A stretch of 64,000 bases of DNA. Source: Solitalea lacus (GTDB taxonomy: Bacteria; Bacteroidota; Bacteroidia; Sphingobacteriales; Sphingobacteriaceae). The translations under genes were made by a program, and so were the position numbers. The notes under the pieces were generated by a model. The model saw only the letters and a program-made list of their open reading frames with translations, did no database searches and was not told the DNA's origin. The first letter of the stretch is position 1; the number at the start of each line of letters is the position of its first letter. Shown one piece after another: positions 48,961 through 64,000 of the stretch. The stretch is from positions 2,964,200 through 3,028,199 of the forward strand of contig NZ_CP091740.1 in NCBI RefSeq assembly GCF_022014595.1. The letters run 5' to 3'.

Positions 48961-51900
48961 TTACCTTAATATCGTTACATGACCTATTATCTGTTGAACA
49001 CTATTATGCTCATTTTTCATTGAGATCACATAATAATATGTAGCAATAGGTAATAGATTACCATCCCAATCATTTTGATAGTTCGCAGCTTTAAACATAA
49101 GTTGGCCAAAACGATTGTACACCGTCAGCTCAGCTCCAATTGATTCTATTCCCTTGATAACAAAGTAATCATTTACTCCGTCATTATTAGGGGTAAACAC
49201 ATTAGGGATTGCAAAGCCATTAATTAACTTACTTGCTGATGCCGTATTATTCTTTAAATTTTTATCAACAAGACGGGTTGAAACACTTGCGGTGTTAATA
49301 TAAATTCCTGCCTGATTCACTTTCACTCTTAATGTTAGAGATTGTTCTTCACCTTTTTGCAAACTGTCAATTGCCCAAAACAGCTTGTGAGTTACAGGAT
49401 CGTAACTAATAGCACCTTTTAATGCAACAGCACTTATAAACTCAAGACCTTCCGGTAGACTGTCTCTTACAGCTATCGAATCAACTGTTACGTTAGAAAG
49501 GTTTGCTGCAGTAATCGTATAATTAAATTCTTCATCCACCTTTACTTCTTTATTTTCCACGATTTTATAAACAGCAAGATCTATACTTGGAGCTATTAGT
49601 GTATCGTTATCAATAATGGCAACTACGGCCTTATCAAGCCCAGGGATGATGCTGGAACCAACGGATGGATTAGAAAGGTTAATTATAAAATCTTCATTGG
49701 GTTCATCAATTGCATCATCAACTATATTAACCGTAATATCTTTATAGGATTCGTTATCCGCAAAATCTAAAACAGCTGTATAATTTGCTGCTTTAAAGTC
49801 AGATTCTTGTTTTGCACTCCCATCAGTTATCTGATAAGTTACACTTCCTGGACTATTACCTAACTTATAAACCCGGTATTTTATCGTGCCAGAATTTTCA
49901 TTGATAGAATCATTCTTAATATAAAATTTACTGATATCATCATCAATAATTGTTACAATACCGTTTGCCTTACCTATTGTGGCACCAACAGGGTTGGTCA
50001 ATATGACATTAAAAATTTCATTAGGTTCTGGAATTAGATCATTCACAATTGGAACCTTAATGGTTTTAGAGGTTTCCTCAGGAAGAAACGTAATTTTTAT
50101 TGAAGGTATTGAGGTGTAGTCATTCAATGCAGTTGCTGTCCCATTTGATGTTTCATAGTTAACTTCAGCATTGAGCTCGGTCATGCCCGTTTTGTTAAGA
50201 GTTAAAGTTACTGTTCCAGCATTTTCATTGACCTCAACGTCTCCAATGGAAATAACAGGTTGATTATCGTCGTTAACAATCGTCCCTACACCCGAGCGTT
50301 TTGCTCCCAAATTCGCAAACTGAGCATTCTGAAGTGATACGGTAAATGTTTCATCAGCTTCATACTTTGAATCTCCATTTATGGTGACATTAACCGTTGC
50401 CCCCGATTGGCCGGCGGGAATGATAACCGAATTTGATACGATATTTTCATAATCGGAATCTGTGGCCGTAGCTGTACCGGGTAATATCACATAGTTAACT
50501 TTAATATCGCGAAGCGTGGGGATAGTGGTTGTTTTAGTAATATTAAACGTGATCACTTTTGTACCGGTATTACCTTCAATTACAGATGGTGGATCATCAA
50601 TGGTTAATAATGGAGCCGAGTCATTATCCAAAATAGCTAATTGCGTTGTTGTAAGCCCTGCTTGGGCATTAGAACTAAGTGAGGTCAGATCTGCCTGCAC
50701 CGTCTCATCATAAAATTCGAAAATATTATCTGCCAAGGCCGAAACTGTAACAGCGATAGAACTCTCAGTTAAACCAGCTGGAATAACTAATGTTACCGGA
50801 CTGGAAATAGTTGCATAATCAGTTCCATTTACTGCTGATCCGGAAAGATTTACAGTTACTGTAATATCGGAAGCTGATGTCTGACTTGAATTGGCAAGTC
50901 TTGCCCTGATTTTAGCTGCAGTCGGTTGAGAATGTGTACCGGGCTCACGAATTGAGGTATAATCAATTGTTAAGCTAACCGTGGGCATGCCGTCATCGTC
51001 AATTATAATACCTGTAGCTACATTATCAGGAGCCGCAGCTAGCGTGTAATCGGTTCCTGACAGCAATGATATTACAACGGTTTCCAGTGCAGGTGTTTCT
51101 GCAATATTATCTCCCAATACAGGAATCAAAATAACTCCTGAAACCTTGCCTGCTTCAATTTTCAGTTGCGTAACCGAATTATCATAGTCGGTTACGCCAG
51201 TAGCCGTTCCGGAAAATGAATAATTCAGAATAATATCCTTTGTACTCTGCCGGCTTAGAGTTATTGGAAACTGCAAATAACGGATTTCTCCCAGTGATCC
51301 TTCAATAACTGTAGGAGCATCATTAATTCTCACTACTGGAGGAGAGTTAGTATCAACAATTTCAATGGTTAATTTATTATTGACCGTATTTTGTATACTC
51401 CCCCCACCCTGTACCGATAAAATACCAACATTAATCGTTTCATTAGGCAGACCTTCAAAAAAACCATCATTAATAGCAGCAACAGTTACACTTGCAGATG
51501 AAGCCCCTATTGGGATTACCACGCTTTGGTTATTTGCTGAGTAATCGACACCTAATTGGGCTGTGCCTATCAGGCTAAGATTTACCTTAACTGGTTCATT
51601 AGTAGGATTTGAAAGTGAAACAGTAATAGTAGCCACATTAGGACTACCAACTTCATTAATCTTCAAATTATCTGTCGAAATACTAACTAATGGCGCTGAT
51701 TGGAGATCTCTAATTTGAAGAATAGCTCCCGCTCCTGCAGTAGCATTGGCTGCAGAAGTTATTGTAGCAATAACAGTTTCTGGTAATGTGCCTTCAAAAC
51801 TATTATCCTTAACTGCACTTAGATTTATACTATTGCTTTGAGTTGATCCTTTTGGAATAATAAAAGTTAGGGTTCCGGAAATAATATTATAATCTATTCC

Positions 51901-53613
51901 CCTGATTGCTGAGCCGCTAAGATTATTGATTGCTACCGTTACCGTGACATCAATAGGAAAAGGTGATTGGACCTGCGCATATATTGTTGCGTTTTGTCCT
52001 TCATCAATTGTGGTTTTGTCAAACACAAGGTTCACCGCATTATCGTCATTTTGAATTACTCCTTGTGCCGAATCCGCACCAATTACAACTCCACTTTCTG
52101 GCGTTATCTTCACCATAAACTCTTCAATAGGCTCTGTATTGCTATCCTTATTTACAGGAATTGAAATTAATACAGAACTTTGTCCGGCAGGAATAGTACC
52201 TGATACATTCGTCGGGAAACCAGAGGGAAAATCGCCTGCATCTGCCGAAGTTGATCCGCTTGGCGATACAGAATAAGTAAAATTGATTGGCTGATTAAGC
52301 GGGGTGTCTCCATCACGCTTTACTACAAAAGTAAAATCAGTAACACCTCCTCCAGTCCCTTCTGCCATACTAGAAGCTTGCGGAGCTACGCTTATCTGCG
52401 TATCATCATTTACAATTGTAAGGGTATGTACTCTATTGCTCCCAAGTATTGCTGAAGAGTTTAAGGGTGTTTCCAAAGAAAAAACAACAGTCTCATTGGG
52501 CTCAACCAGGTTATCACTGGTAATTATCAATGTGATATCCATTACTCGTTGGCCTGGAGTCATAGTAAAAGGATCTTCCCTGTTAAAAACTAATTGAGAG
52601 GCACCTGAGGTGATTTGGAAATCATAATTTGAAGCAGGAGATTCCAATGCTGTTCCGCTAATTGAATACGGCACTCTAACTGTTCGTTCGGTAATGTTAC
52701 CTGTCAGGGTTACCCTAACTGTGACAGCAGTACCAATCCCCTCTGTATAGAAAGAGGAGATTTGTTCAAAAGCTACTGTAGGTGGAGCATCTGTATCTAA
52801 GACTTGCACTGTGGCTCTACGACTTGCCGCAGTTGAACCTAAGACAGCCGCTAATGAAACCGAATTTAAAGTGATAATGATTGTTTCTGTATTTTCATCC
52901 CTAACATCGCCAAAAACAATTACAGGAATTATTGCTGAGGAGTTTCCAGCAGGAATAATAATGGATGTCATAGAATTTTTATAGTCAACACCAGGACCTG
53001 CTGATGCTCCACCAAAAGCAGTTCCACTATAGGAAAAATTAAGTACCAGATCAACTGATGATGGATTACTTAAATTAACTGGAAAATTTATTACGCCATT
53101 TGCTTCCTTAAACTGAGCAGGGCTTGAAATTGTAACCACCGGCTTCTTATCATCGTCAGTAATAGTTCCTATTGCTGAATTAGCAGGAGCAGCTATAATT
53201 GAAGCGGTTCCGGTTGTGCCTGTAAGATTTACCTTAATATCCTCATTAGGTTCATCAATTATGTCACCCTTAATAGGTATTGATACGGTGACAGAGCTTG
53301 TATTTGCAGGAATAGTGATTGAAGTTACAGCATTATCAAAATCAATTCCCGGAATTGCTGTACTTGCTGAAAAATCATATGTTACCGTTACATCTGTTGC
53401 GCTTACCGGAGCTATATTAATCTTAAAAACTAAGGAATTGGAAGTACCTGAATTACCTTCCATTACAGTAACTGCATTTTCAATACTAACTATTTGTGCC
53501 TTACTTTGGACTACTACTAGCAATAAAAGAGCACAAAAAAGGTATCTAACGGCATTTTTATAAAACAATGCTGTATTTAAAGAGAGAGGCGAGAGTGTAA
53601 ATTTTTTAACCAT
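48961..53613 (-). CDS. Giant Calx-beta repeat surface protein with T9SS type-B sorting domain
   Basis: A 1550-residue secreted or surface protein. After a signal region ([20 protein letters not shown], about 21-40) it consists of about eleven Calx-beta domains of roughly 115-130 residues, recognisable by recurring NEDI/NETV stretches and DDD or DND calcium-binding turns (for example [24 protein letters not shown]). A DUF11-type domain ([31 protein letters not shown]) precedes the C-terminal gliding-motility sorting domain: [24 protein letters not shown] ... [22 protein letters not shown] ... GHVTILR. Export by the type IX system follows from that tail; calcium-dependent adhesion is inferred. 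Confidence 0.9.
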   Translation of the reverse strand: [1550 protein letters not shown]

Positions 53614-56018: not shown

Positions 56019-56993
56019 TTAAAAATACCGTGGTGATAACATTCTAATTTTCTTCGGTATAAATGAATATCCTAGAGAGATTTCATGGGTTCCGTAGTTA
56101 AAATCCCTGAACTTATTGAATGCAAAGTCGTAAGCATAACCGATCCTTAATCTATCTGTGACATACACCTCTGCTAAAGCCACCACAGCATCTGTAGTAC
56201 TTAGATTAGATTGCAGGTTATCTTTCTTAAACAGTTTCATTCCCGTTCTGTAAGATGCCCCCAGCCACAGTTTTTCGTAAAGAAGCACAAATGTATTTAA
56301 ATCTAAATTGGTTGGTCCTTTTGATTCGTTCTTGAGCAAAAATGACGGTTTCAATAAAACAGACTTCGTTATTGTAATTAAGCCGCCCGCGGTTAAATAA
56401 AGGTGTGGCATTTTAGTTGGGATCAAAATCGAAGGATCCTTGGTATAATTCATATACTTCCCAATAAGATTATCTACTGATGCACCTGCATACCAACGAT
56501 CAGAGGAATAATAGATCCCAGCTCTAATGTCAGGGACTATAATTGACTGCATTCCATTAAACTGACGTGGATCATCGGGTTGATTGAATTTAAGCTTATT
56601 GCCGTCAAGGCCATATTGTGAAACTCCAACCCCTAAGCCAAAAGCCAATCGGGATACATCACCAACTTTTAACCTATAGGCATAATTTGCATAAGCGGCT
56701 AATGTACTTTCAGCACCCAATTGATCCTTTAAAACCATTAATGCTAAACCTACATTTCCGTCATTAGCTATTGCGTCTAAGGCTAAACTGAATGTCTCCG
56801 GATTTCCTTCCAATCCCCCACTCCATTGATTCCTGTAAAAAGTATGCAAGTTCAACTGCTCTTTGTAACCTGCGTAAGCAGGGTTTATATATATGCCATT
56901 AAACATGTACTGAGAAAACTGTGCATCCTGTTGCGCATAACCAGCTGTTGCCCACAAGACGAACATTAGCGAAAAAAAAGATATTTTTCTCAT
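56019..56993 (-). CDS. PorP/SprF-family T9SS membrane protein, copy 1
   Basis: A 324-residue outer-membrane beta-barrel-like protein. Signal peptide to about residue 20, then QQDAQFSQYMFNGIYINPAYAGYK, the hallmark PorP/SprF N-terminus, and a C-terminus RIGYAYDFAFNKFRDFNYGTHEISLGYSF. SprF-type proteins attach or guide a dedicated adhesin such as SprB during type IX secretion. It is closely similar to copy 2 at 57941-58918, especially the first 100 residues. Directly upstream lies a decayed adhesin remnant; downstream is the PorE-like gene. Confidence 0.9.
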   Translation of the reverse strand: MRKISFFSLMFVLWATAGYAQQDAQFSQYMFNGIYINPAYAGYKEQLNLHTFYRNQWSGGLEGNPETFSLALDAIANDGNVGLALMVLKDQLGAESTLAAYANYAYRLKVGDVSRLAFGLGVGVSQYGLDGNKLKFNQPDDPRQFNGMQSIIVPDIRAGIYYSSDRWYAGASVDNLIGKYMNYTKDPSILIPTKMPHLYLTAGGLITITKSVLLKPSFLLKNESKGPTNLDLNTFVLLYEKLWLGASYRTGMKLFKKDNLQSNLSTTDAVVALAEVYVTDRLRIGYAYDFAFNKFRDFNYGTHEISLGYSFIPKKIRMLSPRYF

Positions 56994-57940: not shown

Positions 57941-58918
57941 TTAAAAATACCTGGGCGTCGACATTCTACATTGTCTGGCAATCAAGGAAAATCCTAATGA
58001 CAGTTCATGGGTTCCGTAATTGAAGTCTTTAAACTTGTTATACGAGAAGTCATAGGCATAGCCGATGCGCAGACGATCAGAGATAAACACCTCAGCCAGA
58101 CCAACAAGTGCATTGGTTGTCGACAAATCCTGTTGCAGGTTCTCCTTCTTCCAAATACTAATTCCTGTCCGGTATGACCCTCCTAACCACACCCGCTGGG
58201 CAAACAACATAAACACATTTAAATCCAGACTTGCAGGACCTTTGGATTCATTTTTTAACAGAAAGGACGGCTTCACCAAAAAGTGCTCAGTGAATGACAT
58301 TAATCCTCCTGCAGTTAGATAAAAGTGGGGCATTTTTTTAGGGATCAATATAGAGGGATTCTTGGTATAACTCATATACTGGGCAATCAAGTTATCCATC
58401 GAAACCCCGGCATAGAAGAAATCATTGCTGTAATATAGCCCAGCTCTGATATCAGGAACAAATACCGATTGGTTTGTTTTGGGCACAGTAGGATCCTCCA
58501 ACTGATTTGGACTTAGTTTTGAGCCGTTGATCGCATATTGCGAAACTCCCGCACCCAATCCAAAGGCCAGACGAGCGCTTTCACTAACTGGTAATCTATA
58601 AGCATAATTCAGATATCCAGAAAGCGTACTTTCAGCTCCTAGTTGATCTTTTAAAACATTTAATGCCAGACCCACATTCCCATCATTGGCTATGGCATCC
58701 AAGGCCAAACTAAAGGTTTCCGGGTTACCATCCAGGCCGCCGGTCCACTGACTGCGGTAAAAGGTGTGCAAGTTCAATCGTTCCTTATATCCGGCATACG
58801 CGGGATTAATATAGATTCCATTGAACATATATTGCGAAAACTGGGCATCCTGTTGGGCATAGGTAACCGAAGAGAACAACATGAACCATAGGAGTGGGAC
58901 AATAATTAATGTTTTCAT
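57941..58918 (-). CDS. PorP/SprF-family T9SS membrane protein, copy 2
   Basis: A 325-residue paralogue of copy 1 with the same layout: signal peptide MKTLIIVPLLWFMLFSSVTYA, then QQDAQFSQYMFNGIYINPAYAGYK, LALDAIANDGNVGLAL and the C-terminal RIGYAYDFSYNKFKDFNYGTHELSLGFS. It directly follows the giant HYR adhesin with an 18-bp gap, so it is its likely dedicated secretion or attachment partner, like sprB-sprF pairs. The transcript ends at the hairpin 57853-57890. Confidence 0.9.
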   Translation of the reverse strand: MKTLIIVPLLWFMLFSSVTYAQQDAQFSQYMFNGIYINPAYAGYKERLNLHTFYRSQWTGGLDGNPETFSLALDAIANDGNVGLALNVLKDQLGAESTLSGYLNYAYRLPVSESARLAFGLGAGVSQYAINGSKLSPNQLEDPTVPKTNQSVFVPDIRAGLYYSNDFFYAGVSMDNLIAQYMSYTKNPSILIPKKMPHFYLTAGGLMSFTEHFLVKPSFLLKNESKGPASLDLNVFMLFAQRVWLGGSYRTGISIWKKENLQQDLSTTNALVGLAEVFISDRLRIGYAYDFSYNKFKDFNYGTHELSLGFSLIARQCRMSTPRYF

Positions 58919-58936: not shown

Positions 58937-61900
58937 CTAACGTAAAATGGTTACATAACCCGTGTATCTCACCGACTTATTGTCAGATGCTGTAACAGTA
59001 AGCACGTAGAAGTAAGTACCATCGTGCAGCTGTGAACCGTCCCAATCGTTGCGGTAGTTGTCGCTTTTATAGACCTCATTCCCCCAGCGGGAAAGCACCA
59101 CCAACTGCGTTTTCAGATCATCAATGCCATCAATAACAAATGTGTCGTTAATGACATCCCCGTTGGGCGTAAAGACATTCGGAATCTTAAAGCCCAACAC
59201 GGTTTTAATAACCTGCGCCGTGTTGCTCGAAGGATCCATTTCGGGTTGCGCGCCCTTCACCTCTACCGTATTGAGTACATTGCCTCCTTTAATTGCCTTC
59301 ACCCTGAGCGTCAAGCTGGCCGAGCCATTCACATCCAAACTGGCTAGGTTCCAGGTAACTTTATGCGAAACCGGATCATAGGTCACTTGTCCATTGGTTG
59401 CATTGCTGCTCACATAGACCAGTGCAACCGAGAGAGGATCCAGTACCACCACATCATGCGCTGATACATGACCCAAGTTGGAAACATCGATCATGTACTC
59501 AAACTCTTCATTTAAGTCAACTGAGTTAGGCGATGTGCTCTTTTTGATCACCAGATCCACATTGTCGTCCAAAACCTTGATTGTCAATTTTCCGGTAGCA
59601 CAAAGAGCGGGGTTCCCCTTGTCGCATACGGTGTATGAGATGATTTCGGTACCGTAATAACCATTGGTCGGAGTGTATTGAATTTTTCCATCGCTACCTA
59701 CGGAGATTGTTCCATGGCTAGGCTGCGATACATTGGTCAACGTCAAGCCGGCTGCTCTTCCCTTTGACGGCACATTGTCCGGATCGCTGGCACTTTCCAT
59801 AGGATCAGCGGAGACCTCATGATTCATCAAGGTACTTACCTCCACATCAGGGGCAATGGGCGGCAGATTAACAATTGTTACATGCTGCACAGCGTTTGAC
59901 TGCAAGCCGTTCACATCCGTTACCGTCCAGATTACTGTGGTGGTCCCTTCAGGGAAAACGGCAGGGGCATTATTGATTACACTAGCCACTCCACAGTTGT
60001 CAGAAGTTACCGGCGTGCCAAGATTAATGGCCGAACCAGTATTCAAGCCCTGCGAAGTGATGTCGGCCGGCGGGGTAATCTGCGGCAGAGTCACATCTTT
60101 AACGATCACATTTTGGGTGGCCGTTTGCACGTTGCCATTGCCATCATCAAACGTCCAGGTAATAATATAGGTACCTTGGGCAGTATAAGCAAGCGGATCG
60201 GAGGTCGTTCCGGTTATAGTTGCATTATTATAATTATCAGAAGTGGTAGGCGCAGTTGCAGTCACTGAACACTCACCATTCAGATCAGGTAAACTAGGCT
60301 TGATCGGTTTGATCTTATCCTCCACTGTCAACACCGATTGACAGGTGGACACGTTGCCATGGTTATCTGTCACGGTCAGCGTAACAGTAATGGTGCCCAG
60401 ATTCGAGCTATCGAAATTAGTCTGACTGACTACCATTGACTGTATGCCGCAATTATCCCATGAGCCATCGTTGATGTCTGCTGCCGAAATGCTTACCTTA
60501 CCCGATTCATCCAATTGAATGGTGATCGGTTTACAGATTACAACAGGGGCGGTATCATCCACTACGGTCACCACTGTCTGACAGGTAGAAACGTTGCCGT
60601 TATTATCTGTTACCGTCAATGTCACAGGATTCTCGCCCACATTTGAGCAATCGAATTGCGTTTGACTTAACTCCATTGATTTGATGCCGCAGTTATCAAA
60701 CGAGCCGTTATCAATGTCTGCTACAGTTATACTGGCCTTGCCATTGGCATCCAGTGAAATTGTCAGCGGCTTGCATTTCACAACCGGGGCGGTGTTATCC
60801 ACCACTGTCACCGTCGCCTGACAGATGGAAACATTATTGCTGTTATCCGTAATTGTCAACGTCACGGTATTCTCGCCTATATTCGAGCAATCAAAAACGC
60901 TTTTGCTTATAGTCCATGATTTAATACCATCGTTATCCGAAGAACCATTGTCGATGTCCGCTGCCGTGATGACGGCCTGTCCGTTGGCATCCAGTTGAAC
61001 CGTCAGCGGCTTGCATTGTACAACCGGAGCTATATTATCCACCACCGTCACACTCGCCTGACAAGTAGAAACATTACCGTGGTTATCAGTAACTGTCAAA
61101 GTCACAGTAATGGTACCCAGGTTTGAGTGATCGAAATTAGTCTGACTGACTACCATTGATTGAATCCCACAGTTGTCCCATGACCCATTGTTAAGGTCTT
61201 CTGCTGTGATACTTACATGGCTTGCAGCATCCAATTGAATGGTGATCGGTTTGCAGATTACAACAGGGTCGGTATCATCCACTACAGTCACCACTGTCTG
61301 ACAGGTAGAAACGTTGCCGTTATTATCCGTTACCGTCAAGGTCACCGCATTAGCTCCTACATTGGAGCAATCAAAATCGGTTTTACTTACAGTAAGGGAT
61401 TTAATACCGCAGTTATCAAAAGAACCGTTGTTGATATCAGCTGCCGTGATACTGGCTTTGCCCGTAGCATCCAATGGAATTGTTACCGGTTTGCATTTTG
61501 CAACTGGAGGGATATTATCTACTACCGTAACTACAGCCTGACAGGTGGAAACATTATTGCTGTTATCTGTTACGGTAAGCGTCACGATATTCTCGCCCAC
61601 ATTCGAGCAGTCAAAAACGCTTTTGCTTATAGTCATTGATTTAATACCATCGTTATCCGAAGAACCGTTATCGATGTCCGCTGTCGTAATGTGGGCTTGT
61701 CCGTTGGCATCCAGTTGCACTGTCAGTGGTTTACATTTTACAACCGGAGCTCCCTCATCCACTATCGTTACTGATGCTTGACAAGTGGAAACATTACCGT
61801 GGTTGTCTGTAACTGTCAGCGTCACTATAATGGTGCCCAGGTTCGAACTATTAAAATGTGTTTGACTTATAACCATTGACTGGATACCGCAGTTGTCGAA

Positions 61901-64000
61901 AGAACCATCATTAAGATCTTCTGCCGTAATGCTTACCTGGCCTGCTGCATCCAATTGAATCGTAATCGGTTTACATCTTACAGTGGGTGCGGTATTATCC
62001 ACTACGGTTACTACTGCCTCACAGGTTGAGACATTATTGTTATTATCTGTAACAGTCAATGTCACTGCATTGGGGCCTACATTCGAACAATCAAAATTGG
62101 ATTTATTTATAGTCAGTGATTTTATACCGCAATTATCTGACGAACCGTTGTTGATATCAGCTGCGGTAATCGAGGCTGAGCCAGTGGCATTCAGCTGAAT
62201 TGTAATGTTTTTGCATTTGGCAATTGGAGCAACCTTATCTTCCACTGTCACCACAGTACTACAGGTTGAGGAATTACCATGAGAATCGGTAACCGTTAAG
62301 GTAACATTGTTCGGGCCAATGTTCGAACAATCGAAAGCATTCTTGCTTAATGAATAGGTAAGCGCCCCCCCCGCTGTACAGTTATCGCTTGAACCATTGT
62401 CGATATTTACTCCAGTGATTGTTGCCGTACCATTGGCCCCTAACTGAACCGTAATATTTTTACAAACAACTGTAGGAACAACCTTATCTTCTACTGTCAC
62501 CACTGCCTCACAAGTTGAAGAATTGCCATGAGAATCGGTAACTGTTAAGATAACCTTATTCTGGCCGATGTTGGAACAATCGAAAGTGCTCTTGCTTACT
62601 GAGAAAGTGAGCAAACCAACCGCTGTACAGTTATCGTTTGAACCATTGTCGATACTTACTCCAGTGATTGTTGCAGTACCATTGGCCCCTAACTGAACCG
62701 TAATATTTTTACAGATAACGGTTGGCGCTACCTTATCTTCCACTGTCACCACAGTACTGCAGGTTGAGGAATTACCATGAGAATCGGTAACCGTTAAGGT
62801 CACATCGTTCGGACCGATGTTCGAACAATCGAAAGTGTTCTTGCTTAATGAATATGTAAGTGGACCACCCGCTGTACAGTTATCGCTTGAACCATTGTCG
62901 ATATTTACTCCAGTGATGGTTGCAATACCATTGGCCCCTAACTGAACCGTAATATTTTTACATATAACGGTTGGTGCAGCCTTATCCTCTACAGTTACTA
63001 CGGCCACACAAGTTGAAGAATTGCCATATGCATCGGTAACTGTTAAGGTAACATTGTTCGGACCGATGTTGGAACAATCGAAACTGGTTTTGCTTGCCGA
63101 TAGTGTCACAGAACCACAATTATCAGTCGAACCATTGTTTATATCCGCAGGCGCAATACTTACTGTCCCATTGGAACCCAACTGAATAGTAATATTTTTA
63201 CAAAGAGCTGCTGGTGGAGTAATGTCCCCTACTGTTACTAATGCAGATCCATCTCCTACATTGCTACAATTTGAATCTGAAACATTACCAATCGTGTATG
63301 TTTTGGTAGAAGAAGGAGAAACTGAAAATTGATACGGACTCGAGTTAATCCCGTTTACAGTAACAGGTGTAGTTCCATCTGTATAGGTTATTGACCAAGG
63401 AGCTGTTCCACTTAGGGCAATGCTTAATTGTGTTGAGATCCCCGGACAAATAGTTACCCCTCCACCACTAATGGTTGCAGTGGGTTTTGAACTTTGAGTA
63501 AGCACAAAAGGAGGGCTTGAAACAACTGAAGGACAACTTGTAATTTGATCCTGTACCTCAACTGTATAAGAACCGGGTGTATTAGTTGTATAGGTACTAC
63601 CGGTTGCTCCTGAAATATTATTACCATTAAACTTCCATTGATAAGAATAAGAAGGTTTCCCTCCTCCTGCATTGGCAGTAAGTACTGCTGAAGCTGAACC
63701 ACATAAAACAGGAACATCTGATGTAATAACTGCTGTTAAAGCTGGATAATTATTAACCTTAAATGAACCTGTCACAGGCAACAAATTGCCACAACCATCC
63801 TTGATTGTGCCAGTTACTGAATAAGTAAGCACCGCAGGCGAACCAGCTACCGAGGTATATGTGGCGTACCTGGATGTTACAGGATTAGGAATTATCAAGG
63901 AATTATACTGACCTGGAGTAGGACCTGTAGTAGAGTTAATTGTCAATGAGGTACCTGATGCAACGGCTCCGAAATCAAGCTGAGCAGAACAATTGACCCT
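58937..64000 (-). CDS. Giant HYR-repeat adhesin with T9SS type-B sorting domain (5' end outside the window)
   Basis: Minus-strand frame open through the right edge; at least 1,687 residues are visible and the N-terminus is missing. Order seen: an Ig/PKD-like region (about the first 240 residues), twelve HYR-type repeats of about 80 residues (60310-63222), two divergent HYR-like domains (CSVTATAPTTSDNYNN; ITPPADITSQGLN), a cadherin-like region (QPSHGTISVGSDGKIQYTP), a DUF11 domain (VDLVIKKSTSP) and the sorting tail GFKIPNVFTPNGDVINDTFVIDGI ... RYTGYVTILR. Exported by the type IX system, probably displayed on the surface with PorP copy 2. Confidence 0.92.
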   Translation of the reverse strand, partial: RVNCSAQLDFGAVASGTSLTINSTTGPTPGQYNSLIIPNPVTSRYATYTSVAGSPAVLTYSVTGTIKDGCGNLLPVTGSFKVNNYPALTAVITSDVPVLCGSASAVLTANAGGGKPSYSYQWKFNGNNISGATGSTYTTNTPGSYTVEVQDQITSCPSVVSSPPFVLTQSSKPTATISGGGVTICPGISTQLSIALSGTAPWSITYTDGTTPVTVNGINSSPYQFSVSPSSTKTYTIGNVSDSNCSNVGDGSALVTVGDITPPAALCKNITIQLGSNGTVSIAPADINNGSTDNCGSVTLSASKTSFDCSNIGPNNVTLTVTDAYGNSSTCVAVVTVEDKAAPTVICKNITVQLGANGIATITGVNIDNGSSDNCTAGGPLTYSLSKNTFDCSNIGPNDVTLTVTDSHGNSSTCSTVVTVEDKVAPTVICKNITVQLGANGTATITGVSIDNGSNDNCTAVGLLTFSVSKSTFDCSNIGQNKVILTVTDSHGNSSTCEAVVTVEDKVVPTVVCKNITVQLGANGTATITGVNIDNGSSDNCTAGGALTYSLSKNAFDCSNIGPNNVTLTVTDSHGNSSTCSTVVTVEDKVAPIAKCKNITIQLNATGSASITAADINNGSSDNCGIKSLTINKSNFDCSNVGPNAVTLTVTDNNNNVSTCEAVVTVVDNTAPTVRCKPITIQLDAAGQVSITAEDLNDGSFDNCGIQSMVISQTHFNSSNLGTIIVTLTVTDNHGNVSTCQASVTIVDEGAPVVKCKPLTVQLDANGQAHITTADIDNGSSDNDGIKSMTISKSVFDCSNVGENIVTLTVTDNSNNVSTCQAVVTVVDNIPPVAKCKPVTIPLDATGKASITAADINNGSFDNCGIKSLTVSKTDFDCSNVGANAVTLTVTDNNGNVSTCQTVVTVVDDTDPVVICKPITIQLDAASHVSITAEDLNNGSWDNCGIQSMVVSQTNFDHSNLGTITVTLTVTDNHGNVSTCQASVTVVDNIAPVVQCKPLTVQLDANGQAVITAADIDNGSSDNDGIKSWTISKSVFDCSNIGENTVTLTITDNSNNVSICQATVTVVDNTAPVVKCKPLTISLDANGKASITVADIDNGSFDNCGIKSMELSQTQFDCSNVGENPVTLTVTDNNGNVSTCQTVVTVVDDTAPVVICKPITIQLDESGKVSISAADINDGSWDNCGIQSMVVSQTNFDSSNLGTITVTLTVTDNHGNVSTCQSVLTVEDKIKPIKPSLPDLNGECSVTATAPTTSDNYNNATITGTTSDPLAYTAQGTYIITWTFDDGNGNVQTATQNVIVKDVTLPQITPPADITSQGLNTGSAINLGTPVTSDNCGVASVINNAPAVFPEGTTTVIWTVTDVNGLQSNAVQHVTIVNLPPIAPDVEVSTLMNHEVSADPMESASDPDNVPSKGRAAGLTLTNVSQPSHGTISVGSDGKIQYTPTNGYYGTEIISYTVCDKGNPALCATGKLTIKVLDDNVDLVIKKSTSPNSVDLNEEFEYMIDVSNLGHVSAHDVVVLDPLSVALVYVSSNATNGQVTYDPVSHKVTWNLASLDVNGSASLTLRVKAIKGGNVLNTVEVKGAQPEMDPSSNTAQVIKTVLGFKIPNVFTPNGDVINDTFVIDGIDDLKTQLVVLSRWGNEVYKSDNYRNDWDGSQLHDGTYFYVLTVTASDNKSVRYTGYVTILR
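60310..63222 (-). repeat. Array of twelve HYR-coding repeats with a 720-bp higher-order unit
   Basis: Twelve in-frame repeats of about 240 bp, each coding CK(N/P)(I/L)TxQL ... NGSxDNC ... FDCSN ... VTLTVTD ... STCxxVVTVxD. Repeats 2-4 form one subfamily. Repeats 6-8, 9-11 and 12 follow an A-B-C, A-B-C, A order, so the DNA repeats with a 720-bp period (for example the stretch near 60500-60610 recurs near 61220-61330 almost unchanged). This points to recent duplication of three-repeat blocks. Confidence 0.88.

Follow-up and report, generated by a model that had tools for sequence, protein, structure and literature searches.

The window, a stretch of 64,000 nucleotides of the Solitalea lacus genome, ends in an open frame for a surface protein whose stalk is built from tandem HYR/Ig-like repeats, and since some of these repeats have lost one or the other of their cysteines in a regular order, the locus raises the question of which cysteines are bonded to each other and what the losses mean for the stalk.

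Domain layout and cysteine pattern

The frame has a signal-peptide-like start followed by several Ig-like domains, of which the one preceding repeat 1 carries two cysteines of its own, and then by 12 repeats, each 80 or 83 aa long (window 60296-63202, minus strand). The cysteine columns of a repeat are numbered C0 (CK), C13, C28 (DNC), C42 (FDCSN) and C64 (STC). The features, all on the minus strand, are:

58937..64000, T9SS type B surface protein, the window part of an open frame of 1847 codons
G000:C1:3023139-3028679, the complete open frame, reaching ~480 nt past the window end
62963..63202, repeat 1, four cysteines
62714..62962, repeat 2, four cysteines, 83 aa
62465..62713, repeat 3, four cysteines, 83 aa
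62216..62464, repeat 4, four cysteines, 83 aa
61976..62215, repeat 5, C-like, four cysteines, C42 at 62087-62089
61736..61975, repeat 6, A-type, C28 present at 61889-61891, C42 replaced by AGT (Ser) at 61847-61849
61496..61735, repeat 7, B-type, C28 replaced by GAT (Asp) at 61649-61651, C42 present at 61607-61609
61256..61495, repeat 8, C-type, C28 at 61409-61411, C42 at 61367-61369
61016..61255, repeat 9, A-type, C28 present at 61169-61171, C42 replaced by CAC (His) at 61127-61129
60776..61015, repeat 10, B-type, C28 replaced by GAT (Asp) at 60929-60931, C42 present at 60887-60889
60536..60775, repeat 11, C-type, C28 at 60689-60691, C42 at 60647-60649
60296..60535, repeat 12, A-type, C28 present at 60449-60451, C42 replaced by AGC (Ser) at 60407-60409
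60083..60295, domain 13, HYR of the classical type, C13 present at 60269-60271, C28 changed to DNY (TAT) at 60230-60232
59870..60082, domain 14, HYR-like, last of the array, C28 at 59993-59995 as its sole cysteine, without a far-pole cysteine
59579..59869, Big_9 Ig-like domain (47.4 bits, cut-off 23.6)
59210..59557, DUF11 domain (73.9 bits, cut-off 24.6)
58943..59188, T9SS type B C-terminal sorting domain by profile match (TIGR04131, 41.1 bits, cut-off 35; CHU_C, 75.5 bits, cut-off 27)

Two of the repeats (25.0 and 24.0 bits) and the whole protein (90.9 bits) score above the Pfam cut-off of 21.7 for HYR (PF02494), but the window repeats are of a four-cysteine FDCSN subtype with C42 in place of C13. 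The classical column C13 is absent from all of repeats 1–12, most of which have C42 instead, and is found in domain 13; possession of C13 does not as such define the Pfam family. This domain, directly after the C42-less repeat 12, shows DNY where its relatives in a paralogue have DNC. The repeats also match the LapB 80-residue repeat (NCBIfam NF033932; 88 bits, cut-off 45), and the repeat length is equal.

All four cysteines (CK, DNC, FDCSN and STC) are found in repeats 1–5, 8 and 11. The A-type repeats 6, 9 and 12 keep DNC but have FNSSN, FDHSN and FDSSN respectively for FDCSN, and the B-type repeats 7 and 10 have DND instead of DNC with FDCSN present. This pattern had been described in the initial annotation and is borne out by the codons. 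The 720-nt period that was also described there is real and extends one repeat further, the order of types in repeats 5–12 being C-A-B-C-A-B-C-A. Among these repeats the mean nucleotide identity is 79% (75–83) at lag 3 and 66–71% at lags 1, 2, 4, 5 and 6, and the first and second A-B-C units are 81% identical across 720 nt. The period is, judged from these identities, an old three-repeat (higher-order) duplication. The two units are thus copies of each other and had to be rejected as independent evidence, so their regularity does not by itself argue against random loss, as had been claimed.

Covariation of cysteines between neighbouring repeats

Homologous arrays were collected from the genomes of relatives and by a scan of species genomes, with the repeats called by an iterated profile. 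The hypothesis was formed on a discovery set of 115 non-redundant reading frames with ~1,700 repeats in all, and the frozen rule was applied without refitting to a fresh set of 36 reading frames from other genomes; the combined survey comprises ~2,260 repeats in 150 non-redundant reading frames from Bacteroidota. Each joint was scored for a far-pole cysteine (C42 or C13) in domain i and for C28 in domain i+1.

Among 1157 adjacent pairs in the discovery set both cysteines are present in 1113, only the far-pole cysteine in 3, only C28 in 10 and neither in 31, which leaves 13 discordant pairs (lag +1, phi 0.825, Fisher p 9e-49). Within the domain and at lags -3, -2, -1, 2 and 3 phi stays within -0.04 to 0.07, and for C28 against C42 or C13 of the same domain it is 0.047 (z 1.0 in the pairing map). 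The fresh set has 398 joints with both, 1 with the far-pole cysteine only, 3 with C28 only and 7 with neither (4 discordant, phi 0.778); it is the cleaner test, though of smaller size, and one protein, L190, accounts for five of its seven co-losses. The odd lags correlate too in the fresh set, because this single protein alternates A B A B. In the combined survey the corresponding counts are 1503, 4, 13 and 38, and the 17 discordant joints of 1558 are mostly array starts behind another domain type. When C28 was shuffled within arrays (2000 shuffles) the discordant joints averaged 96 and never fell below 78, against the 17 observed.

The next C28 is present after C13 in 379 of 379 and after C42 in 1124 of 1128 cases (combined), while C13 and C42 occur together in only 3 of 1459 C28-bearing domains, and this near-exclusion suggests that the two are alternatives in the same role. 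Two column pairs stand out in a pairing map of 30 tests, C0–C64 at lag 0 (z -15.4), which acts as the positive control for a bond inside the domain, and the far-pole cysteine with C28 at lag +1 (z -13.7); the third in strength has z -3.6. We infer from this covariation that the canonical middle pair of cysteines is an inter-domain staple, from C42 or C13 of domain i to C28 of domain i+1. Under this rule 17 of 3023 half-cystines are left unpaired, and with intradomain pairing 124. Pairing of C28 with C42 inside the repeat, with leftovers, was rejected on the covariation.

The 18 proteins with co-losses are not 18 independent events, as L064, L067, L084, L089 and L105 are mutually homologous. 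An A-state repeat directly followed by a B-state repeat is found beyond chance in the unrelated proteins L047, L114 and L135 besides the window protein. L047 (G037:C73:160000-174802, minus strand) is a 3008-codon ORF with an array of 35 domains and has A|B at six joints, the first of them with a slightly irregular A, unevenly spaced by 6, 6, 4, 5 and 4 domains. Many surveyed arrays open with a B-state repeat behind a cysteine-free domain and some close on an A-state repeat, as would be expected if C28 pairs with the preceding domain and C42 or C13 with the following one. At array starts C28 of the first repeat tends to be kept only where the upstream non-HYR domain has a cysteine (Fisher p 2.6e-4).

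Probable bonding of the stalk and its joints

The stalk of the window protein is with high probability a rod of HYR/Ig-like domains joined head to tail and stapled by disulfides, with no staple at the A|B joints 6|7 and 9|10 and at 12|13. The first and fourth cysteines (CK and STC) should form the intradomain disulfide of each domain. C28, in the loop preceding strand C, would be bonded to the previous domain, and C42, in the loop following strand C, to C28 of the next domain, with C13 in the A-B turn replacing C42 as the forward-bonding cysteine in classical HYR domains, so that an ordinary joint would have one inter-domain disulfide staple. By covariation and topology, from which the bonds are deduced, repeats 5–9 should be connected by 5.C42–6.C28, 7.C42–8.C28 and 8.C42–9.C28 with none at 6|7, and repeats 10–14 by 10.C42–11.C28, 11.C42–12.C28 and 13.C13–14.C28 with none at 9|10 and 12|13. 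Both half-cystines of a single staple would then be gone at an A|B joint, and every remaining C28, C42 and C13 cysteine of repeats 5–14 would have a partner with zero leftovers; C28 of repeat 1 has no partner assigned in this scheme. The stapled segments would be of 6, 3, 3 and 2 domains, divided by unstapled and probably more flexible joints that come every three domains in the C-terminal half of the stalk. In the T9SS, type B proteins are anchored at the surface via their C-terminal domain (PMC12635249), so the half with the unbonded joints should be the one nearer the cell. The genome encodes DsbA and VKOR homologues, which makes oxidation before export plausible.

The AlphaFold2 output was used for confidence and secondary structure. 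For repeats 5–8 (54 alignment rows) pLDDT was 96.6 and pTM 0.72, and the predicted secondary structure has one single strand between C28 and C42, which by topology would place these on opposite poles of the domain, with C42 facing the next domain and C28 the previous one. Bridge residues are predicted in the linker and just ahead of C28 only in domains preceded by another, which locates the C28 region at the joint. The model shows no looser A|B joint, with pTM 0.72 for the block containing the unstapled joint and 0.73 for a fully stapled block. An Ig-like beta-sandwich is predicted from the pLDDT of 96.6, the strand pattern and the matches to Ig-like rods; the fold is matched best by tandem rods, namely RTX extender repeats, cadherins and Rib domains, with 6xi1 and protocadherins as the top whole-length matches, and among solved structures a close relative was not found, the best PDB sequence matches being weak.

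Selected hinges and tolerated decay are about equally likely as explanations of the unbonded joints. We regard it as a tentative reading, slightly short of an even chance, that HYR-type arrays of Bacteroidota are disulfide-stapled rods in which coupled loss of cysteines sets hinges at chosen joints, so that flexibility could be read from the sequence; that the chosen joints would be every third in the window protein and every second in L190 is held with the same reserve. The decay explanation, which competes with the role as hinge and not with the staple itself, is also a little under evenly probable: after one loss the free thiol would be harmful and the partner lost, and the duplication would have copied the defect without any hinge. 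It would fit the varying residues at the C42 site of the A repeats (Ser, His and Ser), as expected of an unconstrained site, the absence of a three-domain phase from the arrays of same-family relatives, the uneven (L047) or every-second (L190) unstapled joints elsewhere and the zero unstapled joints in arrays of 50–60 repeats. Against decay, the unstapled joint survived duplication, L047 has it six times, L190 has it at five places in strict alternation, and the cysteine change in domain 13 matches its neighbour. In L190 (G380:C181:32000-39443), a minus strand ORF of 1293 codons, the A and B states alternate strictly five times, and under the staple rule the domains would be stapled in pairs with every second joint unstapled. 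L044, L080 and L176 have ~50–60 consecutive repeats that are all stapled under the same rule with zero unstapled joints, indicating that hinges are no general need of long arrays.

It is improbable that a shared metal site or a packing contact of C42(i) with C28(i+1), and not a disulfide, is behind the lag +1 covariation: the chemistry is not readable from covariation alone, but there are just two cysteines per joint in a secreted protein, genes for oxidative folding are present, C0–C64 behaves alike within the domain, and C13 stands in for C42.

Most improbable is the scheme of the initial annotation, with DNC and FDCSN paired inside the repeat and the leftover cysteines of A and B joined across a rigid A-B joint. 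Almost all A-state repeats in the surveyed arrays do precede a complementary domain, but within a domain C28 is not usefully associated with C42 or C13, and the scheme leaves 59 of the 3023 half-cystines unpaired against 17, gives no account of the B-state first domains after cysteine-free domains or of the A-state last domains, and would have to pair two cysteines that flank a single strand and hence are predicted on opposite poles. The scheme was correct in expecting bonds between domains, in so far as losses are coupled between neighbours and a disulfide between domains is probable, but by the lag +1 covariation it placed the bond at the wrong joint: DNC of A should pair with the repeat before A and FDCSN of B with the one after B, and the A-B joint should be one without a disulfide, the opposite of rigid.

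Relation to known systems

The domain family is known; in the openly licensed papers searched no description of inter-domain stapling of HYR arrays or of its coupled loss was found. RTX adhesin extenders and cadherins are likewise tandem Ig-like rods, and PMC7493085 describes Ca2+ in the linkers of RTX extenders as stiffening the rod, whereas the joints of the window protein are probably stiffened by disulfides and not by calcium, and with ~14% identity the family is not shared. The stapled joints would be the disulfide counterpart of the calcium-stiffened joints in these proteins. The giant adhesin of Mobiluncus has Ig repeats and covalent cross-links too, but there the links (ester, isopeptide and disulfide) all lie inside single domains, and a flexible linker connects one domain to the next (PMC10619420). 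Fragments of the grappling hook protein of Aureispira solved by cryo-EM are found among the VIA-align rows (Z about 7) and are absent from the sequence matches, and this fold match may reflect a common arrangement only; the literature searched gave no paper on the structure of that protein. The plasmid searches gave one weak match in one and none in the other.

The cysteine pattern gives a simple rule for which domains of huge surface proteins would be tied covalently and where the chain would bend, and the rule is testable on a four-domain fragment. If true, the flexibility map of a giant adhesin would be legible from its cysteines. The middle two cysteines of HYR-type repeats should in any case not be presumed to be an intradomain pair.

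The protein has a T9SS type B sorting domain, as SprB-type gliding adhesins do, but different repeats. The gene that follows it, a 325-aa ORF at 57941-58918, is a candidate PorP/SprF-type carrier as judged by eye. SprF has a twin-cysteine tail (PMC12635249), and the two PorP/SprF-like ORFs of the window, 56019-56993 and 57941-58918, differ from it in having the C-tails KKIRMLSPRYF and ARQCRMSTPRYF without a cysteine pair. Another surface protein of 1550 aa, apparently a type B T9SS substrate, is encoded at window 48961-53613 and has Calx-beta-like repeats without the cysteine pattern described here. The same genome encodes a 3121-codon paralogue that has a long array of classical HYR domains (G000:C1:3032507-3041869, in L010). 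Next to it are an ORF of 332 codons, which is the size of PorP/SprF, and one of 748 codons, and a cassette of adhesin, carrier and third gene seems to recur along the region.
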